Origin: Streptomyces europaeiscabiei
GTDB lineage: Bacteria > Actinomycetota > Actinomycetes > Streptomycetales > Streptomycetaceae
Assembly (NCBI RefSeq): GCF_036346855.1
Contig: NZ_CP107841.1
Coordinates: 558,001 to 622,000 of the forward strand
Direction of reading: 5' to 3'
DNA length: 64,000 nt
The translations under genes and the position numbers were made by a program. The notes under the pieces were generated by a model. That model made no database searches. It worked only from the letters and a program-made list of their open reading frames with translations, and was not told the origin of the DNA. The number at the start of each line of letters is the position of its first letter. Positions within the stretch are counted from its first letter, which is position 1. Of the stretch, positions 11,288-41,880 are shown piece by piece.

Positions 11288-12619
11288 TCATGCCTCCGTC
11301 GTCGTCAGGTCCGTCGTGCGGCGGGCGAGGATGGAGTCGCAGATCTCGCCGGCGCGGACGGCCGTGGTGGAGAGCAGGGTCGAGGTGAGGCCGTGGGTGT
11401 GTTCGGTGCCGCCCTGGAGGTAGATGTCCGCGGTGACATCGGGGGCGGTGGCCACCCGGTGGTCACGGCCGACCTGCAAGGCGTCCTCGTCGTCGCGCAG
11501 GCAGAGTTTGCCGATCTCCCCCAGGTTGTCGCCGATGCCCCGCGGCCGGTAGCCCGTGGCGTGGACGAGGAGGTCGGCGGAGAGAACCTCGCGTTCCCCC
11601 GTCGGCAGGAACTCCACCGTCACCTTGACCTCGTCCGTGCCCGCCTCCACCTCGCGCAGGCGGGAGACGTTCATCATCCGCAGCCGCTCCCGGCCCTGGA
11701 CCTTCTCCTGGTACATGGACCGCGAGAGCGACTCGATCAGGTCCATGTCCACGACGGAGTAGTTGGTGCTGCGGTGGTAGTCGAAGAGCGACTGCTTCAC
11801 CTCGCGGGGCGCGCCGTAGTACAGGTCGACGGCCTCGGGGTCGAAGATCTTGTTGGCGAAGGGGCTGTCGTCGGCGGGTGTGTAGCCGTACTTGGCGAAC
11901 ACGGAGCAGATCTCGGCCTCGGGGAAGCTGCGGTGGAGGTAGTCCACGGCCTCCGCCGCGCTCTGTCCGGCGCCCAGGACGACGGCACGGCGTATCGGCC
12001 GTCCCGAGCGTTGGGCCTGTTCGACGCGGGGCAGCAACTCACTGGTGTGCCAGACACGGTCGGACAGGGCCGCGCCGGGCGGAAGGTGCGGTTCCAGGCC
12101 GGCGGCCACGCAGATGCTGCGGGCACGGCGGACGGTGAGCCGTTCCGGGTCGCCGGGGGTGCGGCTGGTGACGTCGAAGTAGCGGACCTCGCCGTCCCGG
12201 GTGACGGGGCGCACGGAGACGACCTCGGCGGAGTACTCGACGAGGTGCGCGACACGGGCGGCGGCCCACTCGAAGTAGTCGTGGAACTCGATGCGCAGGG
12301 GGAAGAGGGTCTTCAGGTTGAGGAAGTCGACGAGCCGGCCCCGGTCGCGCAGATAGCACAGGAAACTGAAGTCGCTGGTGGGATCGCGCATCGTCACCAG
12401 GTCCTTCAGGAAGGACACTTGCATGGTGGCGTCGTCGATCAGCATCCCCCGGTGCCATCCGAACCGGGGTTGTCTCTCCAGGAACCCGACCCGCAGCCCG
12501 CCCGCCGTACCGGCGTTCACGGACTGTTCATGGAGTGCGATGGCGAGTGCGAGATTCGATGGGCCGAATCCGATACCCAGTACGTCGTAGATTTCCGGCC
12601 CGGTGTGCAGCGTCGTCAC
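11288..12619 (-). CDS. L-ornithine N5-monooxygenase (siderophore biosynthesis, CchB-like)
   Basis: A flavin- and NADPH-dependent N-hydroxylating monooxygenase of about 443 residues that makes N5-hydroxy-L-ornithine, the hydroxamate precursor loaded by the NRPS. Motifs: FAD-binding GIGFGPSNLALA at the N terminus (GxGxxN type), QVSFLKDLVTMRDPTS, NADPH-binding VVLGAGQSAAEAV in the middle, and the terminal HATGYRP plus HTHGLTSTLLS block of the IucD/PvdA/CchB family. GTG 12619 follows AAAGG and is preferred; a GTG at 12649 has no site. It is transcribed divergently from the formyltransferase gene across an iron box at 12698-12716. Equivalent to cchB of the coelichelin cluster by family and position. 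Confidence 0.93.
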   Translation of the reverse strand: MTTLHTGPEIYDVLGIGFGPSNLALAIALHEQSVNAGTAGGLRVGFLERQPRFGWHRGMLIDDATMQVSFLKDLVTMRDPTSDFSFLCYLRDRGRLVDFLNLKTLFPLRIEFHDYFEWAAARVAHLVEYSAEVVSVRPVTRDGEVRYFDVTSRTPGDPERLTVRRARSICVAAGLEPHLPPGAALSDRVWHTSELLPRVEQAQRSGRPIRRAVVLGAGQSAAEAVDYLHRSFPEAEICSVFAKYGYTPADDSPFANKIFDPEAVDLYYGAPREVKQSLFDYHRSTNYSVVDMDLIESLSRSMYQEKVQGRERLRMMNVSRLREVEAGTDEVKVTVEFLPTGEREVLSADLLVHATGYRPRGIGDNLGEIGKLCLRDDEDALQVGRDHRVATAPDVTADIYLQGGTEHTHGLTSTLLSTTAVRAGEICDSILARRTTDLTTTEA

Positions 12620-12697
12620 CGCGTCATCGCCTTTCGTAGTACAGGTCACAGAGTTTCACAAGGTGGAACACAGCTCCCCCAGCAGAGACATGTTAGA

Positions 12698-12716
12698 TAA
12701 GGTAAGCCTTACCTAG
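12698..12716. promoter_or_regulatory. Iron box (DmdR1/IdeR-type) in the divergent hydroxylase-formyltransferase promoter
   Basis: A 19-bp element centred at 12707 with perfect 7-bp arms AGGTAAG/CTTACCT. It matches the DtxR/DmdR1 consensus TTAGGTTAGGCTAACCTAA at 14 of 19 positions. It lies 22 bases before the formyltransferase ATG and about 80 bases before the monooxygenase start, so Fe2+-loaded repressor could close both promoters. Confidence 0.85.
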
Positions 12717-12737
12717 CAACGGCTGAGGAGGGCTCAT

Positions 12738-13685
12738 ATGCGGGTCGTTATGTTCGGGTACCAGACCTGGGGACACCGGACACTGCAGGCACTGCTGGAT
12801 TCCGGCCACGAAGTGGTCCTGGCAGTCACCCATCCCAAGAGCGACCACGCGTACGAGAAGATCTGGAGCGACTCGGTCGCCGATCTCGCCGAACAGCACG
12901 GTGTGCCCGTGCTGCTGCGCAATCGCCCGGACGACGACGAACTCCTGCGCGTGCTCAAGGAGGCGGATCCGGACCTCATCGTCGCCAACAACTGGCGTAC
13001 CTGGCTGCCGCCCGAGATCTTCGATCTGCCACCGCACGGCACGCTCAACATCCATGACTCGCTGCTCCCCACGTACGCGGGGTTCTCCCCGCTCATCTGG
13101 GCGCTCATCAACGGCGAGAAGGAGGTCGGTGTCACGGCCCACCGCATGGACGCCGAACTCGACATGGGTGACGTGCTGTTGCAGCGTTCGGTGCAGGTCG
13201 GGCCGCACGACACGGCGACGGACCTGTTCCACCGCACGGTCGACCTGATCGGCCCGCTCGTCACCGACTCGCTCGAACTCATAGCCTCGGGCAAGGCCGT
13301 GTGGACACCCCAGGACCGCTCGCGGTCGAGCTTCTTCCACAAGCGGTCCCCCGAGGACAGCCGGATCGACTGGACCTGGCCCGCCGAGGACCTGGAACGG
13401 TTCGTACGGGCCCAGTCCGACCCGTATCCCAACGCGTTCACCCACCACCGCGGCGAACGGATCCGGATCGTCTCGGCCGCCGTGTCCGAGGGACGTTACG
13501 GCGGCACGCCTGGGCGGATCTTCATCCGGGAGGGCGACGGGATCGTCATCGTGGCCGGCGCCGAGGCCCGTTCCGGACGACTGCCGGGGCTGGTGGTCAA
13601 GCGGGTTCGGACGGAGGACGGCACGGAGTACGCGGCGACGGACTACTTCCGCACGATGGGCGGTTACCTGACGGCCCGCCCGTGA
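12738..13685 (+). CDS. Hydroxyornithine N5-formyltransferase (CchA-like, methionyl-tRNA formyltransferase fold)
   Basis: A 315-residue enzyme of the Fmt/ArnA formyltransferase family, expected to transfer a formyl group from N10-formyl-tetrahydrofolate to N5-hydroxyornithine. The catalytic Asn-His pair is in LNIHDSLLPTYAGFSPL (about residues 97-113) and the catalytic Asp in MDAELDMGDVL; the C-terminal OB-like part follows SRIDWTWPAEDLERFVRA. It is a stand-alone paralogue of the housekeeping tRNA enzyme and sits beside the ornithine hydroxylase, as cchA does beside cchB. ATG at 12738 with GAGGAGGG five bases upstream. A terminator separates it from the convergent ATPase gene. Confidence 0.93.
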   Translation: MRVVMFGYQTWGHRTLQALLDSGHEVVLAVTHPKSDHAYEKIWSDSVADLAEQHGVPVLLRNRPDDDELLRVLKEADPDLIVANNWRTWLPPEIFDLPPHGTLNIHDSLLPTYAGFSPLIWALINGEKEVGVTAHRMDAELDMGDVLLQRSVQVGPHDTATDLFHRTVDLIGPLVTDSLELIASGKAVWTPQDRSRSSFFHKRSPEDSRIDWTWPAEDLERFVRAQSDPYPNAFTHHRGERIRIVSAAVSEGRYGGTPGRIFIREGDGIVIVAGAEARSGRLPGLVVKRVRTEDGTEYAATDYFRTMGGYLTARP

Positions 13686-13787
13686 ACTCGCAGGGGTGAC
13701 GGGGGCCCGTACAGGACCCTTCACGGGTGACTGCCCGCCTCTCGACCCCTCACGAGCCCGTTGCCGCCCCGGACCCGTGAGCCCGAG

Positions 13788-13820: not shown

Positions 13821-15002
13821 CTACACGGGCACCGGGTCCGAGTCCGCGTCCGTTCCCTCGTGGTGGCGGCCCATCGGGATGACCATGGGGGTACTGCTGA
13901 CAGGGTCCTCGCCGACGACGCAGCGCAGTCCGAAGACGTCCTCGACCATCGTGGCGGTGATGACGTCGGCGGGGGCGCCCTCGCCCGCGACACGCCCGTT
14001 CTTCATGGCGATGATGTGGTCGGCGTACCGACAGGCCTGGTTGAGGTCGTGCAGAACCATGACGACGGTGCGGCCCTGGTGCCGGTTGAGGTCGGTGACC
14101 AGGTCGAGGACGTCGATCTGGTGGGCGAGGTCGAGGTAGGTCGTCGGCTCGTCCAGCAGCATCACCGGGGTGCCCTGGGCGACGGCCATGGCGATCCAGG
14201 CGCGTTGCCGCTGTCCGCCGGAGAGTTCGTCGACGGGCCGGTGGGCGAGGTCGGTCATGGCGGTGGCCCGCAGCGCCTCGTGCACGGCCTCCTCGTCGCC
14301 CTGCGACCACTGCCGCCACCATGTCTGGTGCGGTGAACGCCCGCGCCCCACCAGGTCGATGACCGTCAGCCCCTCGGGGGCGACGGGGGTCTGCGGGAGG
14401 ATCCCGAGTTGCTGGGCGAGGGTGCGGGTCGGGATGGAGTGCACCGAGCGGCCGTCGAGGTGGACGGCGCCGGCCTTGGGCGTCAGCAGCCGGGCCAGGG
14501 CACGCAACAGGGTGGACTTGCCGCAGGCGTTGGCGCCGACGATCGCGGTGACGCGGCCGGTCGGGATCACCAGATCGAGATCCTCTACGACGATCCGGTC
14601 GTCGTAGGCCAGGCGAAGACCCTCGGCGCGCAGCTCGGGGCCGTCGGCACGGGAGCCGGCGCGGGGATCCGGACGCGGATCGGGGCGGGAACCCGTGGGG
14701 GAATCGGTGGGAGTGCCGGCACGGGAATCGGCCGGGACCTCGGCACGGGAATCGGCCGGGTCGTCTTCATGGGCGCCGACCGGGACTTCGGTACGGGAAT
14801 CGGCCGAGGCGCCCGCACGGGAGCCGGCCGAGGGCTCGTCAGGGGAGTCGGTGGGAACGTCGGCGCGGGACCCGGCCGCCGTGTCCGCACGGGAGTCGGG
14901 CGAGGCTTCGGCACGGGAATCGGACGGGGTGCCCGCACGGGAGTCGGACGAGGCTTCGGCACGGGCGTCGTCCTTCGTTACCGGTTCGAACTTCGATGAC
15001 AC
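13821..15002 (-). CDS. Siderophore ABC uptake ATPase with 14-copy octapeptide-repeat N-terminal extension
   Basis: A FepC/CchE-type ATPase that powers ferric-siderophore import with the two FecCD permeases upstream. The ATPase proper begins near residue 126: Walker A GANACGKST, signature LSGGQRQRAW, Walker B VMLLDEPTTYLD, then the H-loop VMVLHDLNQ. It is preceded by about 125 extra residues absent from ordinary homologues. Residues 14-125 are fourteen in-register octapeptides of the pattern RAxxxxDS (RAEASSDS, RAGTPSDS, RAEVPADS and so on), highly charged and disordered-looking. The extension seems translated: GTG 15002 has AGGAGG eight bases upstream, immediately after the permease stop (15007). 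Third functional gene of the iron-regulated import operon. Confidence 0.92.
   Translation of the reverse strand: MSSKFEPVTKDDARAEASSDSRAGTPSDSRAEASPDSRADTAAGSRADVPTDSPDEPSAGSRAGASADSRTEVPVGAHEDDPADSRAEVPADSRAGTPTDSPTGSRPDPRPDPRAGSRADGPELRAEGLRLAYDDRIVVEDLDLVIPTGRVTAIVGANACGKSTLLRALARLLTPKAGAVHLDGRSVHSIPTRTLAQQLGILPQTPVAPEGLTVIDLVGRGRSPHQTWWRQWSQGDEEAVHEALRATAMTDLAHRPVDELSGGQRQRAWIAMAVAQGTPVMLLDEPTTYLDLAHQIDVLDLVTDLNRHQGRTVVMVLHDLNQACRYADHIIAMKNGRVAGEGAPADVITATMVEDVFGLRCVVGEDPVSSTPMVIPMGRHHEGTDADSDPVPV
14628..14963 (-). repeat. 24-bp minisatellite (14 degenerate copies) inside the uptake ATPase gene
   Basis: About 336 bp made of 24-bp units encoding octapeptides RAxxxxDS, all in the reading frame of the ATPase. 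Best-preserved units give RAEASSDS, RAGTPSDS, RAEASPDS, RAEVPADS and RAGTPTDS; several others have drifted (PDEPSAGS, HEDDPADS, PTGSRPDP). A unit length of exactly eight codons means copy-number change keeps the frame. Confidence 0.85.
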
Positions 15003-15006
15003 GTCT

Positions 15007-16116
15007 TCAGCCTCCTGAACCGGCGCGGTTGGCGCGGATGAGCAGCCACAGCAGTACGGGTGCGCCGAGTACCCCGGTGACGATCCCGACCGGCAGTTCG
15101 GTGTCGGGAATGACCTTCCGGGCGGCGAGGTCGGACACGAGCACCATCACGGCACCGGTGAGCCCCGCCGCGACGGGTGGCGGGAACGGGGTGCCGGCCA
15201 GGCGCTGGGCGACCTGGGGTGCGGCGAGCGCCACGAAGGCGACGGGTCCGGCGGTCGCCGTGCCGAAGGCGACGAGCCCGACCGAGATGAGCAGGACGGC
15301 CACCCGGACGATGTGGACCCGGGTACCCAGGCCCTTGGCGACGTCGTCCCCGAGTTGCAGGACGCGGATCTGGCGGCCGAGCAGGATCGCCGGGGGCACG
15401 AGCACGGCCATGGTGATCGCGAGCGGGCCGATCTGTTCCCAGGTACGGCCGTTGAGGTTTCCGACGAGCCAGCCGAGGGCGGCCTGCGCCTGGAAGCGCT
15501 GGCCGCGGGCCAGGAGGTAGTCGGTGATGCTGGTGCAGATCCAGGCGATACCGATGCCGACGAGGACGATGCGGTAGCCGGTGGTGCCGCGTTTCCAGGC
15601 CAGGACGTACACCAGCAGCCCGGCGGTCAAGGCGCCCAGCAGACCCAGGGCCTGGGTGCTGAGGCCGCCGTCCCAGCCGAGGACGATCCCGGCGACGACC
15701 ACCGCGCCGGCGCCCTGGGTGATGCCCATCATGTCGGGGCTGGCCAGCGGGTTGAGCGTCACGGTCTGCAGAAGGGCCCCGGAGATGCCGAACGCGATGC
15801 CGACGAGCAGCCCGGCCAGGGCGCGCGGCAGCCGCAGTTCGTGCACGATCAGTTCGGTGCCGGGGTCGCCCGTGCCCACCAGGGCCTTCAGCACATCGGT
15901 GAGCGGGAGGTCGATGTCCCCGACGGAGGTCTCCACGGCGAACGCCAGGAACGCGGCGGCCGCGAGCAGCAGGGAGACGGCCAGCAGGCGGGGGCGTACG
16001 ACACCGGAGACGGGCGGCGCCGGGAACCGGAAGGGGAGGCGGTCGGCCGTGCGGCGCCTGGGGGTCGGATCCGCGGCGCCCTTCGAGGGCGGCACGGGCG
16101 CGAGGTCGGTCGTCAT
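15007..16116 (-). CDS. FecCD-family siderophore permease (second permease gene)
   Basis: A 369-residue polytopic permease of the BtuC/FecCD family, about ten transmembrane helices. Signatures: LRLPRALAGLLVGIAFGISGALLQ, NPLASPDMMGITQGAGAVV, and the ATPase-contact region GDDVAKGLGTRVHIVR, with GPVAFVALAAPQVAQRL. The first 60 residues are cytoplasmic and Pro/Arg-rich. It should pair with the permease at 16570-17610 and the downstream ATPase as one importer, like cchC/cchD. ATG 16116 overlaps the stop of the repeat frame upstream as ATGA, so translation may be coupled through that frame. Stop lies four bases before the ATPase GTG. Confidence 0.92.
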   Translation of the reverse strand: MTTDLAPVPPSKGAADPTPRRRTADRLPFRFPAPPVSGVVRPRLLAVSLLLAAAAFLAFAVETSVGDIDLPLTDVLKALVGTGDPGTELIVHELRLPRALAGLLVGIAFGISGALLQTVTLNPLASPDMMGITQGAGAVVVAGIVLGWDGGLSTQALGLLGALTAGLLVYVLAWKRGTTGYRIVLVGIGIAWICTSITDYLLARGQRFQAQAALGWLVGNLNGRTWEQIGPLAITMAVLVPPAILLGRQIRVLQLGDDVAKGLGTRVHIVRVAVLLISVGLVAFGTATAGPVAFVALAAPQVAQRLAGTPFPPPVAAGLTGAVMVLVSDLAARKVIPDTELPVGIVTGVLGAPVLLWLLIRANRAGSGG

Positions 16117-16568
16117 CGGCTCACAGCTCCACTGATTCGGTCGTCATGGACCGCCGGCGGCACGGTCTCGAAGGCCACGGACCGCCGATGCCGTGGCCCG
16201 GTGGCGACGGGGCCGCATTCCGGCGGCGCGGTGGCCACGGTGCCGCCGGTCCGTGGTTCACCGAATCCCGCCCGCGACCCACTCGGCTCTGCGGCCACGG
16301 GACCGCCGCTCCGCGGCTCGCCGGACAACAGCCGGAAACGCCACGGCTCGGCCGCCACGGGACCGCCGTTCGACGACTCACCGAACAACACCCGCGATCC
16401 CCGGGGCTCGGCGGCCACCGGCCCCCTGTTCCGAAGCTCGCCGGACAACACCCGCGACCCGCACAACTCGGCGGTCACGGGCAGGGTGACCCGCAGTTCG
16501 GCGGTCACCGGCCACGTCCCCCACGACTCACCGGCCATGGGCCCGCGCCTCCCCGGTCGAGAAGTCAT
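16113..16568 (-). CDS. Putative 151-residue repeat protein between the two permease genes
   Basis: An open frame that fits exactly between the permease genes: its ATG at 16568 is one base past the upstream permease stop, and its TGA overlaps the downstream permease ATG as ATGA. The product is mainly a tandem repeat. Residues about 30-109 are four 20-residue units of the form PVAAEPxGSRVLxGExRxGG, flanked by 10-residue half units (PVTAELRVTL, PVATGPRHRR). No signal peptide, membrane helix or known domain. It is either a small coupled protein or a translated spacer born by repeat expansion that keeps ribosomes moving between permease genes. Known coelichelin-type operons have no such gene. Coding status is inferred from the exact start/stop fit. 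Confidence 0.5.
   Translation of the reverse strand: MTSRPGRRGPMAGESWGTWPVTAELRVTLPVTAELCGSRVLSGELRNRGPVAAEPRGSRVLFGESSNGGPVAAEPWRFRLLSGEPRSGGPVAAEPSGSRAGFGEPRTGGTVATAPPECGPVATGPRHRRSVAFETVPPAVHDDRISGAVSR
16242..16481 (-). repeat. Four tandem 60-bp repeats between the permease genes
   Basis: Four 60-bp units in frame, each encoding a 20-residue unit starting PV(A/T)AE; the second to fourth are most alike. Half units flank the array. Divergence between copies is moderate, so the array is not a recent assembly artefact. Confidence 0.75.
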
Positions 16569-16569
16569 C

Positions 16570-17610
16570 TCACAGCTCCGCGAGGCGTCGGCGGCGGACC
16601 AGCGCGATGAAGAAGGGGCCGCCGATGAAGGCCACGAGGATGCCCGCCTGGATCTCGGTCGGGCGGGCGATCAGCCGGCCTGCGATGTCGGCGGCCAGCA
16701 GGAGGCAGGGGGCGAGGACGGCCGACAGGGGCAGCAGCCAGCGGTGGTCCGGGCCGACGCCGGCCAGTTGGGCGAGGACGCGGGCGATGTGCGGGACGAC
16801 CAGGCCGACGAAGACGACGGGCCCGATGACGGCGACCGCTCCCCCGGTGAGCAGGGTGACGGCGATGACACCCTGGACGCGGACCAGGCCGAGCTTGAGG
16901 CCGAGCGACTTCGCCACGTCGTCGCCGAGGGCGAGGCTGTTGAGGGCCGGGGCGCAGGCGAGGGCGAGGATCGCGCCGACGGCCAGGAACGGCAGGACAC
17001 GCAGGAGAACCCCCTCGTCCTGGTTGGCGAGCGAGCCCGCGCTCCAGAAACGGTAGCGGTTGAGGGCGTCCGGGTCGGTGAGGGCGATGGCGCTGGTCAG
17101 CGAGAACAGCAGGGAGGTCACGGCGACGCCGGCCAGGGCGAGTTTGACCGGTGTGGAGCCGGACCGGCCGAGCCCGCCGAGGAGGTACACCAGGACGCTG
17201 GCGACGAACGCGCCGCCGAAGGCGAACCAGATGTAGCCGTACACCGATGCGATTCCGAGCACACCGACCGACAGGACGACCGCGAAGGCCGCGCCCGCGC
17301 TGACACCGAGGATGCCGGGGTCGGCGAGCGGATTGCGGGTCAGCGCCTGCATCAGCGCGCCCGAGAGGCCGAGGGCGGCGCCGGTGGCCAGGCCGAGGGC
17401 GGTGCGTGGCACACGCACGGACCAGATGACACTGTCGATACGGGAGTTGGGGGCGTCGCCGAGCAGGGTGTGCCACACCTGGTCGAGGGGGACGCCGAGC
17501 GCGCCGAACGCCATCGACAGGGCGCACAGTGTGAGCAGGGCCACGCCCGAGAGCGTCAGCAGCAGTGCCGCGCGGGGGCCTTTCGCCGCCCGGACCGTAG
17601 AGGTCCCCAC
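16570..17610 (-). CDS. FecCD-family siderophore permease (first permease gene)
   Basis: A 346-residue BtuC/FecCD permease, about ten helices. Signatures: VRVPRTALGLATGAALGLSGALMQ, NPLADPGILGVSAGAAFAVV, GDDVAKSLGLKLGLVRVQ (ATPase contact) and GPVVFVGLVVPHIAR. First gene of the import operon, starting with GTG 17610 behind a weak GAAG. The NRPS gene starts divergently about 200 bases away, and iron boxes lie between. Forms the membrane pore with the second permease; the binding protein for the system is encoded elsewhere in the cluster (37100-38167). Confidence 0.92.
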   Translation of the reverse strand: MGTSTVRAAKGPRAALLLTLSGVALLTLCALSMAFGALGVPLDQVWHTLLGDAPNSRIDSVIWSVRVPRTALGLATGAALGLSGALMQALTRNPLADPGILGVSAGAAFAVVLSVGVLGIASVYGYIWFAFGGAFVASVLVYLLGGLGRSGSTPVKLALAGVAVTSLLFSLTSAIALTDPDALNRYRFWSAGSLANQDEGVLLRVLPFLAVGAILALACAPALNSLALGDDVAKSLGLKLGLVRVQGVIAVTLLTGGAVAVIGPVVFVGLVVPHIARVLAQLAGVGPDHRWLLPLSAVLAPCLLLAADIAGRLIARPTEIQAGILVAFIGGPFFIALVRRRRLAEL

Positions 17611-17623: not shown

Positions 17624-17642
17624 TTTGATGAGGCTTGCCTTA
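17624..17642 (-). promoter_or_regulatory. Possible weak iron box before the import operon
   Basis: Reverse strand reads TAAGGCAAGCCTCATCAAA, matching the 19-bp iron-box consensus at 12 positions, 14 bases upstream of the permease GTG. Much weaker than the other boxes; the stronger box at 17732-17750 may serve both directions. Confidence 0.4.
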
Positions 17643-17731: not shown

Positions 17732-17750
17732 TTAGGTAACCCTTACCTTA
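17732..17750. promoter_or_regulatory. Iron box between import operon and NRPS gene
   Basis: TTAGGTAACCCTTACCTTA, with palindromic AGGTAA/TTACCT arms centred at 17741; 14 of 19 matches to TTAGGTTAGGCTAACCTAA. It sits about 60-75 bases before the NRPS start and 120 bases before the divergent permease start, so it likely represses both under iron sufficiency. Confidence 0.85.
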
Positions 17751-17807
17751 GTATGTCGGCGACCCGGCTCAGAACCGGACCCCGACCTGGTGGGAAGGCT
17801 CACTGCT

Positions 17808-33400: not shown

Positions 33401-36400
33401 CGACACGGCCCAGTCGTTCGCGGACCGGCTGCTGCGTGTCCTGCGTGCCGTGACCGCCGACCCGGACACGGCACTCGGCCGCGTCGACATACTCGGCGCG
33501 GACGAGCGGGCCCGCCTCCTCGACGGCTGGCACAGCGGGCCTGCCGCGGGGGCACCGACCACCACTCCCGCCCTCTTCGAGGAGCAGGTGCGTCGCCACG
33601 GTGACCTCCCCGCCGCCGCGTCCGACGGCGTCGAGCTGACGTTCGCCGAACTCAACGCGGACGCCAACCGGTTGGCCCGGCTGCTCGTCGAGGCCGGTGC
33701 CGGACCCGAGCGGTTCGTCGCCCTCGCGCTGCCCCGCACCGCGCACTTCCTCACGGCCGTCCTCGCGGTCCACAAGGCGGGCGCCGGCTATCTGCCGCTC
33801 GACCCGGACGCCCCGGTGGAGCGCACGGCCGACGTCCTCGCCGATGCCCGGCCGGTCCTGACCCTGACCACCCGCGACCTGGCCGCCACCCTGCCGACCG
33901 GCACCGAACCCCTGGTGCTGGACGACCGGGACACCCAGGAGCGGCTCGCGTCCCAGGACCCCGCCGACCTCACCGACGCCGACCGCGTCGCCCCGCTGAC
34001 GCCCCGGCACCCGGCGTACGTCATCTACACCTCGGGCTCCACCGGCCGCCCCAAGGGCGTCGTGATCACCCACGCGACCCTCGGCAACCTCTTCCACAGC
34101 CACCGCGAGACGCTCTACGCCCCCGCGATCGACGCGGCCGGGCGGCGCCATCTGCGGGTGGGCCACGCCTGGTCGTTCTTCTTCGACGCGTCCTGGCAGC
34201 CGCAGTTGTGGCTGCTGGACGGGCACTGCGTCCATGTGCTGTCGGAAGAGGTCCGGCGTGACCCCGAACTGGTCACCGAGGCCGTGCTCCGGCACCGCTT
34301 CGACTTCCTGGAGGTCACCCCGTCGTTCTTCACGCAGATGGCCGACAGCGGTCTGCTGCGGGGCGGCGACTGCCCGCTCGCGGTCGTCGGCGTGGGCGGC
34401 GAGGCCGTCCCCGTCGCCCTGTGGAAGCGGCTGTCCGAGCTGCCCGGCACCGAGGCGTTCAACCTGTACGGGCCGACCGAGTCGACCGTGGACGCCCTCG
34501 TGGGACGCGTCCGCGACAGCGAACGGCCTCTCGTGGGACGGCCGGTGGCCGGCACCCGGGCGTACGTCCTCGACGACCGCCTCCAGCCGCTGCCGCCCGG
34601 CGTCCCCGGTGAGCTGTACCTCGCGGGCGGCGGTCTCGCCCGCGGCTACCTCGGCAGCCCCGGTCTGACGGCCGAGCGGTTCGTGGCCGACCCGTTCGGA
34701 CCGGCCGGATCAAGGCTGTACCGCACGGGCGACCTGGCCCGCTGGACCGCCGACGGACGGATCGACTACCTCGGCCGCGCCGACGACCAGGTCAAGATCC
34801 GCGGCTTCCGCATCGAGCCCGCCGAGATCGAGGCGGCGCTCACCACCCACCCCGAGGTCGGCCAGGCCCAGGTGACCGTCCACCAGGACGGCCCGCGCAA
34901 GCTGCTCGTGGCCTACGTGGTGCCGGTCCCGGACACCGCGCCCGACCCGGCGCTGCTGCGCGCCCATGTCGCCGGCCGGCTCCCGGACCACATGGTCCCG
35001 GCGGCCGTCGTCGCCCTGGAGCGGTTCCCGCAGCTGGCCAACGGCAAGCTGGACCGGTCCGCCCTGCCCGCGCCCGACTTCTCCGCACTGTCCTCCGGGC
35101 GGGCACCCGCGACGCCCGTGGAGGAGCTGCTCTGCACGGTCTTCGCGGAGGTGCTGGGGCTCGAACGGGTCGGTGTGGACGACGACTTCTTCGCCCTCGG
35201 CGGTGACAGCATCGTCGCCATGCAGCTCGTGGGCCGGGCCCGCGCGGCGGGCCTGCGGATCAGCCCGAGGCTGGTGTTCCGGCACCGCACGGTGGCCGCG
35301 CTGGGTACGGTCGCCGAGGCGGCCGACACCGCCGTGCCACGCCCGGTGGACGACGGCACCGGCACCGTGCCGCTCACCCCGGTCATGCACTGGCTGCGTG
35401 AACTGGGCGGCCCCTTCGCCACCTACCACCAGGCGGCCCTGGTCCGCACCCCGGCGGCCCTGGACCTGCCCGGTCTGACCACCGTGCTCCAGGCGCTCGC
35501 CGACCGGCACGACCTGCTCCGCGCCACCCTGGTCAGGCCCTCCCACGAGGACACCGGGGACTGGTCGCTGCACGTGCCGCCCGTCGGCACGGTCGACGCG
35601 GCCGACTGGATCGAGCGGGTCGACGTGTCGGGCCTGGACGCGACCGCGCTGGGCGAGACCGTACGCGAACACACCACCGCGGCACGGGCGCTGCTCGACC
35701 CGGACGCGGGCGTCGTGCTCCGGGCGGTGTGGTTCGACGCGGGCGACGCTCCGGGCCGGCTGCTGCTGATGGGCCACCATCTCGTCGTGGACGGTGTGTC
35801 CTGGCGGGTGCTGCTGCCGGACCTCGAAGCGGCCTGGCGGGACGTCCGTGCCGGACGGCCGGTCGGGCTGATGCCCGTCGAGACCTCCTTCGCCCGCTGG
35901 TCCAGGCTGCTCACCGAGCTGGCCCAAACGCCGGAGCGGGAGGCGGAACTCCCCGTGTGGGAGGCGATTCTCGACGGCGGCGCGGAATCCCTGCCGCTCA
36001 CCCGGGAACGGGACCCGGACCGCGACACCACCGCCACCCAGCGCGAGGTCGTGCTGCGGCTGCCCGCCGAGCACACCGGACCGCTGCTGTCGGCCGTGCC
36101 GGCCGCGTTCGGCGCCGCCGTCAACGACGTGCTGCTGGCCGGACTCGGCCTGGCCTTCGCCGACTGGCGGCGGCGGAACGGCGGTTCGGACACCTCGGTC
36201 CTCGTCGACCTCGAGGGCCACGGCCGCGAGGAGGAGCTGGGCGGCGACGGGATCGATCTCTCCCGTACGGTCGGCTGGTTCACGAGTGTCTTCCCCGTCC
36301 GGCTCGATCCGGGACCGGTCGACACGGACGAGGCCTTCGCGGGTGGTCACGCGGCGGAGGAAGCCGTACGACGGGTGCGCGAACATCTGGGCGCGCTGCC

Positions 36401-36767
36401 CGCGAACGGTGTCGGGTACGGGTTGCTGCGGCACCTCAACCCCCGTACCCGCGAGGTGCTGGCGGCCCACGAGCCGCCGCGCGTCGAGTTCAACTACCTG
36501 GGCCGGTTCGGTATCCCGGAGGAGACGGACTGGTCGTACGCGCCCGAGGAGGACGCGGCGGACATCGGGTCGGAGGACTCGATGCGGGAGGGTCACGCGC
36601 TGGAGATCAACGTGGTGACCGAGGACCGGGCGGACGGGCCGGTGCTGGCCGCGCACTGGTCTTATCTGGAAGGACTGCTGCCGCGCGACACGGTCCAGGA
36701 TCTCGCCGAGACCTGGTTCCGGGCCCTGCAGGGGCTCGTCGCGTGGGCGGAGCGGAACCCGAAGTGA
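17808..36767 (+). CDS. Five-module siderophore NRPS with two N-methyltransferases and terminal epimerisation-type domain
   Basis: One polypeptide of about 6319 residues assembling a pentapeptide hydroxamate siderophore in the cytoplasm. Order: C remnant - A - MT - T / C-A-T / C-A-MT-T / C-A-T / C-A-T-E. Carrier serines are at about 1167, 2230, 3686, 4733 and 5801. Pocket residues read as Ser in module 2 (DVWHLSLVD) and N5-hydroxyornithine in module 3 (DMENLGLIN, the code of coelichelin module 3). There is no thioesterase; the enzyme ends in an epimerisation-like domain. The third C domain has HLILWDG in place of HHxxxDG. GTG 17808 is preferred because GGAAGG lies nine bases upstream; GTG 17790 has no site. 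An MbtH partner gene follows. The class resembles scabichelin/turgichelin (five residues, N-methylation), more than three-module coelichelin. Confidence 0.95.
21500..24630 (+). other. NRPS module 2: C-A-T, serine
   Basis: C2 has an intact HHIVADG (His 1372-1373, Asp 1377). The A2 pocket read against GrsA gives D-V-W-H-L-S-L-V-D, the classical serine code. Carrier LGGDSIS, Ser 2230. No epimerase in the module. Confidence 0.9.
24700..29010 (+). other. NRPS module 3: atypical C, A (hydroxyornithine), N-methyltransferase, carrier
   Basis: C3 reads HLILWDG at about 2438-2444: the second, catalytic His is Leu. The A3 pocket reads D-M-E-N-L-G-L-I-N, identical to the hydroxyornithine pocket I recall for coelichelin module 3. 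A second methyltransferase ([10 protein letters not shown] near 3280) is inserted after A8, closely similar to that of module 1. Carrier LGGHSLL, Ser 3686. Confidence 0.88.
29020..32130 (+). other. NRPS module 4: C-A-T, unassigned substrate
   Basis: C4 is of the LCL-looking type with HHITTDE (His 3869-3870, Asp 3874, Glu in place of the usual Gly). The A4 pocket reads D-G-E-D-A-G-L-V-D and shares the FDxSWE loop with the hydroxyornithine domain A3, so an ornithine-family residue is plausible but unproven. Carrier LGGHSLL, Ser 4733. Confidence 0.82.
32140..35330 (+). other. NRPS module 5: C-A-T, unassigned substrate
   Basis: C5 has HHIAGDE (His 4919-4920, Asp 4924, again Glu for Gly). A5 pocket reads D-A-Q-E-G-G-L-V-D, with the same loop shape as A3/A4 (FDASWQ); partly like glutamine codes but more like the A3/A4 lineage in surrounding sequence. 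Carrier LGGDSIV, Ser 5801, of the GGDS type typical before an epimerase. Confidence 0.82.
35360..36767 (+). other. NRPS C-terminal epimerisation-type domain
   Basis: About 460 residues ending the protein. [11 protein letters not shown] (His 5990-5991, Asp 5995) and [10 protein letters not shown] are the epimerisation-domain signatures. Placed after the last carrier with no thioesterase following, it would set a D configuration on the last residue or hold it for release. Confidence 0.85.
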
Positions 36768-36796: not shown

Positions 36797-37006
36797 ATGA
36801 GCAACCCGTTCGAGGACCCCGAGGGCACCTACCTGGTGCTGGTCAACGACGAGAACCAGCACAGCCTGTGGCCGGACTTCGTGGACGTGCCGGCCGGCTG
36901 GCGGGTGGTCCACGGACCCGACTCTCGGCAGTCCTGCCTCGACCACGTCGAGACCCACTGGAGCGACATGCGGCCGCGGAGTCTGGCCGAGTCGATGGAC
37001 GGCTGA
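36797..37006 (+). CDS. MbtH-family NRPS partner protein
   Basis: A 69-residue MbtH-like protein that binds and activates adenylation domains. It has the family pattern: [12 protein letters not shown], then [10 protein letters not shown], then [16 protein letters not shown] (WTDMRP in most members; here Ser for Thr). The ATG at 36797 follows GAAAGAGG; a GTG overlapping the NRPS stop region is in frame 33 bases upstream but lacks a site. It lies 29 bases past the NRPS stop, same transcript, as cchK accompanies cchH in coelichelin. A strong terminator follows. Confidence 0.95.
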
Positions 37007-37099: not shown

Positions 37100-38167
37100 T
37101 CAGGACGCGGGCTGCTCCACCTTGGTGTCGGTCTTGCCGTCGACGGCCGCCGCCAGCTGCGGGGCCAGCCGCTCGACCACGTACGGCAGGCTGAGGACGG
37201 AGACGAAGGACGTGGCGTTGCCGTAGTCGCCGGTCTCGTTCACGAAGACCTCGCGGCCCTCCTTCACGACCCCCAGGTCCTTGTACGAGGCGTCCTTGTG
37301 CAGCTTCGCGGCGTCCTTGACCGGGTCGCCGACGATCCACACGATGGCGTCCTGGTCCAGCAGGTCGGTGCGCTCCTTGCTGATGTTCGCGCCGAACTGG
37401 TCGCCGATCGCCTTGTCCAGGTCCGTCGGCAGCGAGAAGCCGAGGCCGGTCAGCAGACGCGAGCGGGCGTCCTGGCTGCCGAAGACGAACATGCCCTCGT
37501 ACGGGGTGGCCATGACGGCCGTGGAGCCCTTGAACGCCGGGTACTTGTCGGCGGCGGCCTTGATCTTCGCCTCGGTGCCGGCGACCGCCTCGGTGGCCTC
37601 CTCGGACTTGCCGAGCGCCTTGCCGATCGTCTCGGTCTGCTCCTGCCACGGCACGCCGTAGTCGTTGTACGCCTTGGGCTGGGCGACCACGGGCGCGAAC
37701 TTGGACAGCGACTCGTACTGTTCCTTGGTGAGTCCGCCGTACACCGCGAGGATCAGATCGGGCTTGAGCGCGGCGATCTTCTCCACCTGCGGGCCGGTGC
37801 CCGTGTCCTTGAGGACGGTCGGCGCCGCGGCGGAGCCGAGCTTGTCCTCGGCCCAGGGGCCGATGGCGCCCTTGTAGGCGCCGAGCCATTCGGTGGTGCC
37901 GACGGGGACCTTGCCGAGGGCGAGGACCGCGTCCTGGTCGGTGAGACCGACGGTGACGATCCGCTCGGGTTCGGCCTTGATGGTCGTGCTGCCGTACTTG
38001 TGGTCGATGGAGACCGGGAAGGCGGACTCGCCGGAGGAGGTGCTCGCCTTGGCGCCGGTGTCCGACGTGTCGGAGTCCGAATCGCCGCCACCGCACGCGG
38101 TGGCGAGGAGCAGGGTGGCGGAGGCGAGCACGACGGCGAGCCGCGGCGCTCTGCGGGAGCGGAACAT
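37100..38167 (-). CDS. Ferric-siderophore-binding lipoprotein (CchF-like)
   Basis: A 355-residue substrate-binding lipoprotein (FepB/FhuD, Peripla_BP_2 class). Type II signal: MFRSRRAPRL, hydrophobic stretch, lipobox LLATAC with Cys at about 25, then a Ser/Asp-rich linker. Family features: IKAEPERIVTVGLTDQDAVLALG near residue 63, VEKIAALKPDLILAVYGG, and the long helix linking both lobes. It captures the ferric siderophore at the membrane and passes it to the FecCD permeases encoded at 15007-17610. Its ATG overlaps the stop of the exporter gene (TGATG), so it is co-translated with the export genes rather than with the importer, unlike coelichelin where the import genes are contiguous. Confidence 0.93.
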   Translation of the reverse strand: MFRSRRAPRLAVVLASATLLLATACGGGDSDSDTSDTGAKASTSSGESAFPVSIDHKYGSTTIKAEPERIVTVGLTDQDAVLALGKVPVGTTEWLGAYKGAIGPWAEDKLGSAAAPTVLKDTGTGPQVEKIAALKPDLILAVYGGLTKEQYESLSKFAPVVAQPKAYNDYGVPWQEQTETIGKALGKSEEATEAVAGTEAKIKAAADKYPAFKGSTAVMATPYEGMFVFGSQDARSRLLTGLGFSLPTDLDKAIGDQFGANISKERTDLLDQDAIVWIVGDPVKDAAKLHKDASYKDLGVVKEGREVFVNETGDYGNATSFVSVLSLPYVVERLAPQLAAAVDGKTDTKVEQPAS

Positions 38168-40065
38168 CAGAGGTCCTTCGGTTCGGGTTCCTGTGGAGCG
38201 ATACGTGTGGGGGTCTCGGGGTCCGGCCGGGGGCCGGTGTCGCGGGCGTCCGACCAGGCCGACCAGAGGGCGGCGTAGGGGCCCCGCGCGGACTGGAGTT
38301 CGTCGTGGGTGCCGCTCTCGACCACACGGCCGGCTTCCATGACGACGACGCGGTCGGCGGTGGCCGCCTGGCTGAGGCGGTGGGCGACGATCAGCGCGGT
38401 CCGGCCGTCCACGGCACGGGCGACCGCTTTCTCCAGCGTGCGTGCCCCGGCGCTGCCCGCCTCGGCGGTGGCCTCGTCGAGGATCACCAGGGGCGGGTCG
38501 GCGAGGATCAGCCGGGCCAGCGCGAGGGCCTGGGTCCGCTCGCCGCTGAGCCGGTGGCCGCCGTCGCCGACGACCGTGGCGAGCCCGTCGGGCAGCGCCT
38601 CGGCCCAGCCGAGCGCCTCGACGCGGTCGAGCGCGGCGCGCAGTTCGTCGTCGGTGGCGTCGGGCCGGGCGAGCCGCAGGTCGTCGGCGAGGGGGCCCGC
38701 GAAGACATGGGTCTCCTGGGTGATCAGGGCGATCGTGCGGGAGGCGGCGGTGCCGAGTTCGGTGGGCGCGATCCCGCCCACCAGAACGCTGCCGGTGGTG
38801 GGCGGCTGGATGCCCGCCACGAGCTTGGCCAGGGTGGTCTTGCCGGCTCCGCTGGCTCCGACGAGGGCCACACGTTCGCCGTGCCGGATCGTCAGGTCGA
38901 TGTCGTGGAGGACGGGGTGGCCGGGCCGGTAGGCGTGGCCGAGGCCCCGGACGGTGACGTCTGCGTCGCCGGTCCGCACGGTGTGCGCCGGCACCGGGGG
39001 CACGGGCTCGTCGGTGACGCCGACGAGCCGGGCGAGGCCCGCCGTGGCCGACTGGGCGTCGTCGAGGAGGGCGAGGGCCGCGTTGACGGGACCGAACAGG
39101 CCGTGGAAGTACAGGGCAGCGGCGGTCGCCGTACCGATGCTGGCCGAGCCGTCGCGGACCAGCCAGTAGCCGGTGACGAGGACGGCGGCGAGCCCGATGT
39201 ACTCGGCGATGTGCAGCCGGCTGTAGAAGCCGAGGACGAGCCGTACGCCCCGCATGGTCAGCGCCACCACGGACCAGGACCGTTCGGTGACCCGCTCGGT
39301 GTGCTCCCGCCCCAGCCGGAACGCGCGCACGGTGGAGCTGCCGCCGATGGTGTCGAGCATCTGCTGCTGCTGGGCGCCCGCGGCCACCCGCTGCTCGGCG
39401 TAGAGCGGGATGGCCCGGGTGACGTACCAGCGTGCGGTGGCCGCCTGCACGGGGACCGCGAGCAGCGCGGCCAGCAGGAACCGCCAGTCGAGCAGGGCCA
39501 TGGCCCCGAGGGTGAGGACGATGGTGAGGAGTGAATGCCCCAGCGCGGGCAGCGCGTTGCGCACGGCGTCGGCGATGAGGGAGACGTCGGCGGTGACCCG
39601 GGCGGTCAGGTCGCCGGCGCCGGCCTTCTCGACCCGCTCCAGCGGCAGTGCCAGGGCCCGTTCGACGAAGCGTTCGCGCAGCCGGGCCAGAGTCGTCTCG
39701 CCCAGCCGGGCGATCTGCGACAGCCCGAACCCCGCGGTCACGCCCTGGGCCACGGCGACGGCCACCAGCAGGGCCGCGGTGACCGCGATGGCGTCGGCGG
39801 ACCCCCGGTCGGCGGCCAGGTCGACGATCCGGCCCAGCAGGGGCTGCACGAGCAGGCCGACGGCCGTGGAGGCGACCATCACCGTGAAGGCGGACAGCGC
39901 CAGCCGCCGCTGCGGGCGCAGCAGTTCGGCGACCGCGGCCCGGGTGCGGGCGGGCGTGGCGACGGGCAGCAGTTCGGGTCCGGTGCGGCCGCCGTCGCGG
40001 GGCGCGGCCTCGACGGCGTCGGATCGCTCGGTCATGTGCGAACCGCCGTCGGATCGCTCGGTCAT
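38167..40065 (-). CDS. ABC exporter half-transporter with canonical ATP site
   Basis: A 632-residue membrane-NBD fusion (type IV ABC half-transporter). Six-helix domain at about 35-335; NBD with intact Walker A VGASGAGKTT, ERTQALALARLI in the signature region after HRLSGE (LSGE for LSGG), Walker B PLVILDEAT and H-loop IVAHRLSQA. It pairs with the upstream gene, whose ATP site is degenerate. Likely exports the desferri-siderophore, as the cchG/cchI exporters do; import of the complex is a less likely alternative (compare IrtAB). ATG 40065 overlaps the upstream stop as ATGA; a second in-frame ATG at 40035 lies in a 30-bp duplicate. Confidence 0.9.
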   Translation of the reverse strand: MTERSDGGSHMTERSDAVEAAPRDGGRTGPELLPVATPARTRAAVAELLRPQRRLALSAFTVMVASTAVGLLVQPLLGRIVDLAADRGSADAIAVTAALLVAVAVAQGVTAGFGLSQIARLGETTLARLRERFVERALALPLERVEKAGAGDLTARVTADVSLIADAVRNALPALGHSLLTIVLTLGAMALLDWRFLLAALLAVPVQAATARWYVTRAIPLYAEQRVAAGAQQQQMLDTIGGSSTVRAFRLGREHTERVTERSWSVVALTMRGVRLVLGFYSRLHIAEYIGLAAVLVTGYWLVRDGSASIGTATAAALYFHGLFGPVNAALALLDDAQSATAGLARLVGVTDEPVPPVPAHTVRTGDADVTVRGLGHAYRPGHPVLHDIDLTIRHGERVALVGASGAGKTTLAKLVAGIQPPTTGSVLVGGIAPTELGTAASRTIALITQETHVFAGPLADDLRLARPDATDDELRAALDRVEALGWAEALPDGLATVVGDGGHRLSGERTQALALARLILADPPLVILDEATAEAGSAGARTLEKAVARAVDGRTALIVAHRLSQAATADRVVVMEAGRVVESGTHDELQSARGPYAALWSAWSDARDTGPRPDPETPTRIAPQEPEPKDL

Positions 40066-40080
40066 GTCAGAACCGCCGTA
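40021..40080 (-). repeat. Two tandem 30-bp copies spanning the exporter gene junction
   Basis: Copies 40021-40050 and 40051-40080 differ at three positions. Each carries the start region MTERSD; the outer copy also holds the stop of the upstream gene. In the protein this gives MTERSDGGSH followed by MTERSDAVEA. Confidence 0.9.
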
Positions 40081-41813
40081 CGGTAGTCGGCGCACTCGTG
40101 GACGAGGCGCTCGTGGACGCCGGTCGCGGTGACCCGGCCGTCGCGGAGGAGGACGGCGCGGTCGGTGACGGCGAGCAGGGCCGGGCTGTTGGTCACCAGG
40201 AGCGTGGTGCGTCCGCCGCGGACGTCCCTGATCCCGGCGGCGATGCGTGTCTCGGTGACGGCGTCGACGGCGGTGGCCGGCTCGTGGACGACGAGTACCG
40301 GCGGGTCGGCTGCCAGGGCCCGGGCCAGCGCGACCCGCTGCCGCTGTCCGCCGGAGAGCGAACGGCCGCGTGCGGTGACGGCCGTGTCGACGCCGTCGGG
40401 CAGTGCCCGGGCGACCTCGTCCGTGCCGGAGGCGACCATCGCGGCGGTGACTCCGGCCGATGGGCCGGTGGCTCCCGCCGACGCGGCCGTCGCTCCGACC
40501 GGTGCGGTGGCGCCGACCGCCGCTGTGACGTTGTCCAGGACCGTGCCCTCGAACAGGTCCGCGTCGTGTTCGGCGACGAGGATCGCCGCGCGTACGTCGG
40601 CCAGGCCCAGCGCGGTCAGTTCCGTGCCGTCCAGTTCCACGGCGCCTTCGTCGGGGTCGACGCGGCGGCCGAGGCAGCGCAGCAGGGCGGAGGCGTCGGC
40701 GGGGTCGGTCGTGGCGACGCCGACGGTCTCGCCGGGGGCGATGTCGAGGTCGACGCCGCGCAGGGTGCCGTACGTGAGGGCGCGGAGCGTCAGCCGTCCC
40801 TCGACGCCGCCGCGCGGGACGGCGTCGGCGGACGGTGCCTCGGACACGTCACCGGGGGCGTCCAGGACCTCCGCGATACGGGCGGCGGAGGCGCGTCCCT
40901 GGGCCAGCTCGGCGTTGACCCAGGCGAACTCGCCGAGCGGGCCGACGAGGAACAGGGCGAGCCCGACGGAGGAGACGAGTTCCCCGAGGCCGATGTCGCC
41001 GCGTGCGGCGAGGCGTCCGCCGACGAGGGCGACCACGGCGATGAAGGTGCCGGTGAGGATGGTGACGACGCCGTTCTGCCAGGACTCTGCGCGGGCGGCA
41101 CGCAGGGTCGCGGCGAGGGAGTCCTGGCTGACGCGCCGGTAGCGGGCGACGGCCGCCTGTTCGGCGCCGATGCCCTTGAGGACGCGCAGTCCGGCCACCA
41201 GGTCCGCGGCGACGCCGGAGGCCTGCGCGGCCCGTTCCTGTTCGGTCTCGCTGCGCCGTTCCAGGGGCTTGCTCAGCAGGTGTCCGAGCCACAGCAGCAG
41301 CGGGGTGCCCAGGAGGACGAGCAGGCCCAGCGCGAGGGAGACCCGCAGCAGCGCGACCGCGCCGACCACGAGACCCGCGGTGGCCGCGAAGGCGACGATG
41401 AGGGCCATGGCGACGGCGCCGACCCGTTTGGCGTCCTCGGTGGCGATGTTCGTCAGCTCGCCCGGCAGCCGTCCCTCCTCGGCGCCGCCCTCGGGAGCCA
41501 GGACGCGGCCGACGAGTTCGGTCCTGAGGTGGTGCGCGGCGGTGACGGCGGCGCGCTCACCCGCCCTCGCGCTGAAACGGAAGCTGAAGGAGAGTCCGAC
41601 GTACACGGCGGCCAGGACGCCGAGCCACAGCAGCAGTCCGGGGACGTCGCCGTCCACGACTCCGCGCTCGATGGCCAGTCCGATGAGCACCGGCACGAGG
41701 GCCTCGCCCGTCTGGTGCCCCATCCCCAGAACCGCGCCCAGCACGACGTCCCGACGCTGTCCGCCGACCGCGCGCCACAGGACGTACCGTCCCGGTGGGT
41801 TCGCTTTTCTCAC
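40062..41813 (-). CDS. ABC exporter half-transporter with degenerate ATP site
   Basis: A 583-residue membrane-NBD protein. Membrane domain about 20-310; NBD about 338-580. The Walker A region reads GVATTDPADAS (365-375), without the GxxGxGK(S/T) lysine; the Walker B Asp is His510 (VLVVHEP), and the Q-loop Gln is replaced (VAEHDADLFEG). The signature LSGGQRQR is intact. This is the pattern of the degenerate half of heterodimeric exporters, where the good site is made with the partner's Walker A. An Ala/Gly/Thr-rich insert occupies about 430-461. GTG 41813 follows GGAG by six bases; the in-frame ATG 42 bases upstream has no site. First gene of the operon, behind the iron box at 41862. Confidence 0.9.
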   Translation of the reverse strand: MRKANPPGRYVLWRAVGGQRRDVVLGAVLGMGHQTGEALVPVLIGLAIERGVVDGDVPGLLLWLGVLAAVYVGLSFSFRFSARAGERAAVTAAHHLRTELVGRVLAPEGGAEEGRLPGELTNIATEDAKRVGAVAMALIVAFAATAGLVVGAVALLRVSLALGLLVLLGTPLLLWLGHLLSKPLERRSETEQERAAQASGVAADLVAGLRVLKGIGAEQAAVARYRRVSQDSLAATLRAARAESWQNGVVTILTGTFIAVVALVGGRLAARGDIGLGELVSSVGLALFLVGPLGEFAWVNAELAQGRASAARIAEVLDAPGDVSEAPSADAVPRGGVEGRLTLRALTYGTLRGVDLDIAPGETVGVATTDPADASALLRCLGRRVDPDEGAVELDGTELTALGLADVRAAILVAEHDADLFEGTVLDNVTAAVGATAPVGATAASAGATGPSAGVTAAMVASGTDEVARALPDGVDTAVTARGRSLSGGQRQRVALARALAADPPVLVVHEPATAVDAVTETRIAAGIRDVRGGRTTLLVTNSPALLAVTDRAVLLRDGRVTATGVHERLVHECADYRTAVLT

Positions 41814-41861
41814 GCAACACTCCGGACGGGTTTCGCCAACACAGGAGACGTACAAGAAAAC

Positions 41862-41880
41862 TTAGGTAAGGCTAACTACA
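41862..41880 (-). promoter_or_regulatory. Iron box before the exporter/binding-protein operon
   Basis: The plus strand reads TTAGGTAAGGCTAACTACA, 15 of 19 matches to the iron-box consensus, ending 49 bases before the exporter GTG. It should place the exporters and the binding protein under the same iron-dependent repressor as the biosynthetic genes, and it marks the right border of the cluster. Confidence 0.85.

Follow-up and report, generated by a model that had tools for sequence, protein, structure and literature searches.

A probable scabichelin cluster whose synthetase carries a condensation domain without the central histidine

The locus and its genes

We analysed a 64,000-nucleotide stretch of a Streptomyces genome (positions 558001-622000 of contig 1; genome of 10.95 Mb in three contigs), called the window below, and focused on a siderophore locus of ten genes at 11288-41855 (~30.6 kb). 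The genes form five transcription units, as judged by orientation, around a five-module nonribosomal peptide synthetase (NRPS), which is the fifth of the ten when counted from the exporter side. The locus is most likely a scabichelin biosynthesis cluster from a Streptomyces close to the S. scabiei group, as judged by the NRPS alone, and the third condensation (C) domain of the NRPS lacks the central histidine of its motif. Our overall explanation, to which we assign a probability of about 0.92, is that of a scabichelin cluster in which this C domain makes the second hydroxamate at the side chain of hydroxyornithine (hOrn). The hydroxylase, formyltransferase, importer, exporters, MbtH protein and NRPS listed in a preliminary description of the sequence were all present at 11288-41855 by Pfam and NCBIfam matches, as follows.

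11288-12649, minus strand: L-ornithine N5-monooxygenase, which makes hOrn (Pfam PF13434 Lys_Orn_oxgnase, E=5.5e-105)
12698-12716: iron-box-like site separating the divergent genes for hydroxylase and formyltransferase (15/19 matches)
12738-13685, plus strand: hydroxyornithine N5-formyltransferase (PF00551/PF02911; a 77-95% identical homolog in 11/11 compared loci)
13821-15002, minus strand: putative siderophore importer ATPase with a low-complexity N-terminal extension (PF00005)
15007-16116, minus strand: FecCD permease 2 (PF01032, 6e-81)
16570-17610, minus strand: FecCD permease 1 (PF01032, 1.5e-90)
17732-17750: iron-box-like site between the importer and NRPS units (15/19 matches)
17790-36767, plus strand: five-module NRPS, scabichelin synthetase ortholog (6325 residues, no internal stop; start more likely at 17808)
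36797-37006, plus strand: MbtH-like protein (PF03621, 2.4e-30)
37100-38167, minus strand: putative siderophore-binding protein (PF01497, Peripla_BP_2)
38167-40095, minus strand: putative ABC exporter half 2 (PF00664 and PF00005)
40062-41855, minus strand: putative ABC exporter half 1 (PF00664 and PF00005)
41862-41880: iron-box-like site upstream of the exporter/binding-protein unit (15/19 matches)

Iron regulation, also proposed in the preliminary description, is suggested by the three sites that lie between or before transcription units and match 15 of the 19 positions of what we take to be the iron-box consensus. Three further places gave 13/19 matches (12693-12711, 17624-17642 and 33637-33655, the last inside the NRPS gene), and five first-order random copies of the window contained a mean of 0.4 sites with at least 13/19 matches and none with at least 14/19. 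A regulatory role is probable for the iron-box-like sites, as are transport roles for the importer and the exporters; the top NCBIfam matches of the importer ATPase were iron-siderophore ATPases, all under their cut-offs.

Architecture of the synthetase

Hidden Markov models (HMMs) built from the window's own domains gave the string A-MT-T-C-A-T-C-A-MT-T-C-A-T-C-A-T-E (A, adenylation; MT, methyltransferase; T, thiolation; E, epimerization), in which the last C-type match is an E domain, as judged by motif. This bears out the earlier order of C*-A-MT-T/C-A-T/C-A-MT-T/C-A-T/C-A-T-E, with C* being only a C-domain remnant before A1; the same motif-less C1 was found in L009, L010, L012, L013, L014 and L017 (compared loci are given L numbers and compared proteins P numbers). 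No thioesterase domain was detected in the NRPS by Pfam. The alignments of P0117, P0118, P0141 and others begin at window residue 7, which makes GTG 17808 the likelier start. An HMM alignment anchored on the Ser domain was used to read the A-domain codes, covering nine of the usual ten positions. We take DVWHLSLVD to be a Ser code, and the A3 code, which would be DMENLGLIN in the register usual for CchH, presumably specifies hOrn as in coelichelin. The domains are as follows.

17790-18476, plus strand: C1, residual N-terminal piece of a C domain from which the HHxxxDG half is missing (by sequence)
18483-19709, plus strand: A1, code DVWILGATN, formyl-hydroxyornithine (from position and orthology)
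19887-20789, plus strand: N-methyltransferase domain of module 1 (Pfam and own HMMs)
21510-22811, plus strand: C2, canonical HHIVADG (motif)
22857-24089, plus strand: A2, code DVWHLSLVD, Ser (code read-out)
24705-26012, plus strand: C3, variant HLILWDG without the central His, predicted to acylate the side-chain N-OH of hOrn
25119-25142, plus strand: HLILWDGW motif of C3, the genome's sole exact match to the DNA pattern
26052-27299, plus strand: A3, code DMWNLGLIN, hydroxyornithine (code read-out)
27432-28349, plus strand: N-methyltransferase domain of module 3 (Pfam and own HMMs)
29022-30338, plus strand: C4, HHITTDE (motif)
30357-31604, plus strand: A4, code DGWDAGLVD, Orn, scabichelin type (orthology with S. 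scabiei)
32172-33506, plus strand: C5, HHIAGDE, central His kept, before the second hydroxyornithine A domain (motif)
33561-34805, plus strand: A5, code DAWEGGLVD, hydroxyornithine that becomes the N-hydroxylactam (code quoted for scabichelin module 5 in PMC7692728)
35361-36761, plus strand: terminal E domain, HHxxxDG intact, with no C domain or thioesterase after it

Identity as a scabichelin cluster

We compared the NRPS with its orthologs in two protein searches, each giving the best 120 of some 740-810 scored candidates. Among the matches listed, P0117 (named S. europaeiscabiei, 96.1% identity), P0118 (S. bottropensis, 91.9%) and P0156 (S. antibioticus, 84.0%) aligned over nearly their full length, while P0141, named S. 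scabiei, was 90.1% identical over 6363 aligned positions; all four have the domain order and the five nine-position A codes of the window. Five modules with MT domains in modules 1 and 3 and a terminal E domain were also found in P0141, L009, L013, L014, L015, L017, L025 and L026, the string match of these loci disregarding extra matches to C-domain fragments. In the literature, the scabichelin cluster of S. scabiei 87-22 is SCAB_85431-85521 (30,019 bp, core gene SCAB_85471) and is reported to yield both scabichelin and turgichelin (PMC8914351), and the S. scabiei enzyme is described with a second, central N-methylation domain (PMC7601586). Like the window, the 87-22 cluster would have ten genes with the NRPS fifth, if its locus tags step by ten. 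The module-5 hOrn code quoted for scabichelin is DAWEGGLVDK (PMC7692728), the first nine positions of which equal window A5. Homologs of each of the nine other genes lie around the NRPS in 8 of the 11 compared named loci; L013 was without a binding-protein match and a good second exporter match, L016 and L030 were without an ATPase match, and L014 has the hydroxylase and formyltransferase on the opposite side.

The window and the scabichelin/turgichelin cluster thus have in common the NRPS domain order, the two MT domains, the five codes and the terminal E domain; they differ by ~10% in sequence, and we saw nothing that predicts another product. Since the NRPS shares 90.1% identity, the domain order and all five codes with P0141, we regard the product as a known compound, presumably scabichelin, with an expected formula of C26H49N9O10. 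The preliminary description was right in assigning the class of scabichelin/turgichelin tris-hydroxamates, in reading Ser at position 2 and N-methyl-hydroxyornithine at position 3, and in placing the methylations in modules 1 and 3. It had left residues 4 and 5 unassigned, for which orthology gives Orn (Ser in turgichelin) and cyclic hydroxyornithine, and its wording of coelichelin-like parts around a scabichelin-like NRPS was loose, as all ten genes together make up the scabichelin set. The novelty that it had seen in the methylation pattern and in residues 4 and 5 did not hold, given that P0141 has its MT domains in the same modules and the same A4 code, and that the A5 code is that of scabichelin module 5. 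It had named an NRPS identity above about 85% with the domain order of a cluster with a solved product as the mark of a known compound, and we found 90.1% to P0141, whose strain is not given. A new siderophore of the scabichelin class with different residues 4 and 5 is highly improbable: sister lines with an altered module 4 or an added module do exist, but the five codes and the order of the window are those of P0141, and a new product arising from these two residues was rejected on this ground. Overall, a further probable producer of scabichelin is gained, and a candidate for a new compound is lost.

Module 4 and the choice between scabichelin and turgichelin

We found that two synthetases, P0117 and P0119, both named S. 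europaeiscabiei, are 93-100% identical in every domain outside module 4, whereas C4, A4 and T4 share only 73%, 52% and 67% identity, and the A4 code is DGWDAGLVD in P0117 and DVWHMSLVD, a Ser code, in P0119. Among the 77 listed loci, seven complete named loci have the window's domain string, of which four (L009, L013, L014 and L026) carry a Ser code at A4 and three (L015, L017 and L025) carry DGWD[ASV]GLVD; window A4 is of the Orn type. We infer that replacement of module 4 switches scabichelin to turgichelin, and the exchange between the two S. europaeiscabiei-named synthetases suggests a route for their interconversion. The A4 code is not absolute, because one S. scabiei cluster yields both compounds (PMC8914351), and the same report leaves some room for turgichelin, with Ser at position 4, as the main product here. 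We nevertheless consider this improbable, as window A4 has the S. scabiei code DGWDAGLVD and the Ser-type domains (DVWHMSLVD, DVWHLSLVD) occupy this place in other synthetases (P0119, P0121, L009, L013, L014 and L026).

Composition of the product

Scabichelin has a stated exact mass of 647.36 (PMC7692728), and the turgichelin anion is listed as C24H43N8O11 (table in PMC10458595), with a turgichelin mass of 620.31. We enumerated pentapeptides made up of hOrn, Orn and Ser residues, allowing up to three formyl, up to three methyl and up to two acetyl groups and at most one cyclisation, and found four compositions that fit each mass. With three hOrn residues two remain, having either one formyl and two methyl groups or one acetyl and one methyl group, and both carry one acyl group and one cyclisation; the former was chosen because the cluster encodes two MT domains and a formyltransferase. 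Scabichelin is thus composed of three hOrn, one Orn and one Ser, and turgichelin of three hOrn and two Ser. Scabichelin is cited as an example of an N-hydroxylactam (PMC9228471). One acyl group and one lactam account for two hydroxamates, so the N-OH of the module-3 hOrn must be acylated by a backbone carbonyl.

On this basis, ornithine would be N5-hydroxylated and in part N5-formylated, and the NRPS would assemble N-methyl-formyl-hOrn, Ser, N-methyl-hOrn, Orn (Ser in part) and hOrn. The formyl group would give hydroxamate 1, C3 would form hydroxamate 2 by linking the carbonyl of Ser with the N-OH on the hOrn side chain, and the last hOrn would close to the N-hydroxylactam as hydroxamate 3; this lactam would result if the final N-OH attacked its own thioester, a possible way of chain release for an NRPS with no thioesterase domain. 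The chelator would then be exported by the ABC exporters and its ferric form re-imported by the FecCD system, under iron-box control.

A C domain without the central histidine

Canonical C domains carry HHxxxDG, and the usual view is that its central His takes the proton from the acceptor amine, although this was still called "a matter of debate" in 2021 (PMC8097023). In the window NRPS, C2, C4, C5 and the E domain keep HH, whereas C3 reads RHLILWDG. A phmmer alignment of C3 to the PvdL C domain in the PDB pairs the His of C3 with a His and its Leu with the second His, with a gap upstream in a loop. An alternative is that C3 keeps its catalytic His next to a one-residue insertion (RH-LILW-DG). 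Two observations favour it and count against a lost His: from FDL to DGWS, window C3 has 37 residues and C2 has 36 (counted by eye), so that C3 is one residue longer before DGWS, and some related rows have HHLILWDG, where an insertion reading would leave the second His in place. However, the coelichelin-type C3 (YHLLLWDG; L098, L100 and L103) spans 36 residues over the same interval, which makes an insertion at the motif unlikely and unnecessary; moreover, the residue preceding the His varies (R, H, Y, S) and the PDB alignment puts the gap in the upstream loop. We therefore give this alternative very little weight and read C3 as a domain in which Leu has replaced the central His.

We then tabulated C-A pairs over 105 loci and 179 proteins (1626 rows). 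With 228 terminal C/E rows set aside (29 of them unscored) and 99 other rows unscorable (71 whose code was not read, 24 C remnants before A1 that lack the motif, and 4 more), 1299 scored pairs remained. The 190 scored C domains before DMWNLGLIN comprised 188 with HLxxWDG, one with HMxxWDG and one with HHxxGDE; the second His was thus missing in 189/190 of them, against 0/1109 before other or unread codes (27 unread). In front of the terminal hOrn code DAWEGGLVD, the second His was kept in all 169 C domains, as HH or QH. Both the HMxxWDG row and the HHxxGDE row come from L031 (S. roseoverticillatus), whose two equal hOrn codes follow different C domains, HM in one case and a canonical HH in the other, which indicates that motif and A domain are not coupled in a simple way.

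The same association was found in two other searches. An exact DNA pattern for H[L/F]xxWDGW, applied to 394 genomes of the class, gave 29 matches in 27 genomes (a backwards-pattern control gave 8 matches in the same genomes), of which 26 lie in C domains by context; the other three (L106, L110 and L117) lie outside C domains and were rejected as chance matches. Seventeen of these 26 were extended to larger regions, the window being one of the nine left, and DMWNLGLIN follows in 16/16 readable extended matches, the contig of L135 having ended too early. These include the coelichelin order fhOrn, Thr, hOrn (fhOrn, formyl-hOrn) in L148 and L150, and the order fhOrn, β-Ala-like, hOrn, Thr, hOrn in L139, with HFLLWDG and HLLLWDG before the two hOrn domains. 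We take the latter to be the module order of exochelin MS; L139 lies outside the family of the window's genome and is the only place where an exochelin-like order was seen, the Mycobacterium exochelin synthetase not having been looked for by name. In exochelin MS, coelichelin and erythrochelin the hOrn at these places is linked through its side chain. In the other search, by similarity to A3, the hOrn signature occurred together with HLxxWDG in 18 of 20 loci (L086-L103, of which L086 is the window), and the remaining two (L104 and L105) combine another A domain with HH.

A second His-less type was also observed. Sixteen terminal C domains of four-module lines lack the second His, having HY, VY or SY instead. 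The terminal C domain mostly reads HYLxVDE in L022, L023, L027, L044-L046, L050, L052, L057 and L061, and likewise in L062, L066, L068, L071, L074 and L079; L146 keeps HH in its terminal C domain. Perhaps these HYLxVDE domains form diketopiperazines.

Origin and proposed function of the C3 type

In phylogenetic analysis, 15 rows with the HLW motif formed one side of a branch with a support of 99 in a tree of 107 C and E domains and of 98 in a tree of 79 C domains with the motif masked; in the former, they were nested among C domains, including some directly after E domains. With the thresholds applied, 208 HLW rows were set apart from 46 comparators by 46 alignment columns in total. At one of these, 98% of the HLW rows have Leu where every comparator has His; at another, Trp precedes DG in 100% of the HLW rows and in no comparator. 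Window C3 fits this clade, as it has a residue of the Leu/Phe/Met set at the second His, Trp before DG and a hydroxyornithine A domain next. A single-sequence AlphaFold model of C3 (mean predicted local distance difference test score, pLDDT, 37.4) was not used.

These results suggest that C3-type domains acylate the side-chain N-OH of hOrn, giving a backbone hydroxamate without the central His. In C3 itself the donor would contain Ser, the acceptor would be N-methyl-hOrn on the third peptidyl carrier protein domain (PCP3), and the side-chain NHOH would attack. Compared with an alkylamine, a hydroxylamine is more nucleophilic and less basic; in our reading the central His becomes dispensable because a weakly basic, α-effect hydroxylamine needs no base for its proton. 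A computed stepwise reaction forms the N-C bond first, after which His takes the proton, a role that water could fill instead (PMC8097023). A lipophilic residue replacing His may also steer selection against the α-amine. On balance, we consider it probable that actinobacterial siderophore synthetases hold a separate class of His-less C domains that acylate the side-chain hydroxylamine of hOrn and not its α-amine.

One alternative is that C3 forms an ordinary α-amide, with Leu as a neutral lineage marker and hydroxamate 2 made by a later acyl shift or by another enzyme. The single origin of the trait speaks for it, and shared history therefore lies behind the association alongside function. Yet the loss of His has been retained across coelichelin-type, exochelin-like, four-, five- and six-module lines, which argues for function, and a His-less C domain of this kind precedes hOrn wherever the next A domain is readable. 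The ten-gene cluster has no acyltransferase besides the formyltransferase, and the equal hOrn codes after HM and HH in L031 show the motif to be more than a follower of the A domain. We thus find the α-amide unlikely and favour side-chain acylation.

Several further points weigh against our overall explanation. The A codes cover nine of ten positions (position 10 being unread), and P0141 is named S. scabiei with its strain not given. The side-chain linkage is deduced from composition and from background knowledge of structures. D residues are reported for scabichelin, yet the NRPS has a single E domain, at its end; albisporachelin residues are all L, unlike those of scabichelin and turgichelin, which are said to contain D residues (PMC6024995). 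The trees give the C3 trait a single origin, most census rows were collected by similarity to the window NRPS, and duplicates were kept, with the window present twice and some genomes entering both as locus and as protein, so the counts are not independent and carry no independent statistical weight. One DMWNLGLIN domain of L031 follows a canonical C domain.

If side-chain acylation by C3 is correct, the motif would read the linkage, with C5 of the same enzyme loading hOrn through the α-amine with its His in place, and genome miners would gain a rule for predicting backbone hydroxamate links from sequence. It would also offer a natural His-free condensation enzyme for settling what the central His does. 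The C3 clade bears on the debated role of the central His as a base (PMC8097023), as a working His-less C domain appears to be kept where the nucleophile is a hydroxylamine. In the excerpts of the open-access literature available, we found no paper that pairs a missing C-domain His with a hydroxamate linkage, and such a report may stand in the subscription literature.

Comparison with related siderophore systems

Synthetases of the coelichelin type (CchH order; L148 and L150) resemble the window in having the hOrn A3 code with an HLLLWDG C3. In contrast, they are three-module enzymes (fhOrn-Thr-hOrn) that carry E domains within modules 1 and 2 and no methyltransferase, whereas the window has five modules, Ser in module 2 and no internal E domain, and a coelichelin cluster was rejected. 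Amycolatopsis L024, L030, L036 and L041, which we take to be of the albachelin type from genus and module count, share with the window an HLLLWDG C3 before methylated hOrn and the terminal DAWEGGLVD, but have six modules and another start module, and in L030 the importer genes lie elsewhere. Six-module relatives of scabichelin (L011, L028, L029, L038 and others; ~7300 residues) have the first three and the terminal modules of the window with one additional C-A-T module, and all nine flanking genes were present in L011 and L012. The C3 of fuscachelin (HHxxxDE, PMC8097023) ends in DE like window C4 and C5 and keeps its central His.

Other features of the locus

The importer ATPase reading frame carries ~120 additional N-terminal residues of near-repeats (14620-15002, minus strand), and its real start may be more internal; alignments to related loci span only ~258-285 residues. 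The stretch at 16113-16568, between the FecCD genes, is repeat-rich, and the minus-strand open reading frame there matched no Pfam family. Beyond the peroxidase gene at 43648-44651 (minus strand), a Dyp-type that is split across two overlapping reading frames and thus frameshifted or affected by a sequence error, one more gene beside the cluster was considered.

42041-43603, plus strand: amidohydrolase, possible extra cluster member (PF07969)

The amidohydrolase gene adjoins the exporters and is possibly a cluster gene. Among the seven complete loci with the window's domain string, a 70-90% identical homolog was found near the NRPS in five and was not found in L015 and L017. In L013 and L014 it sits directly after the MbtH gene.

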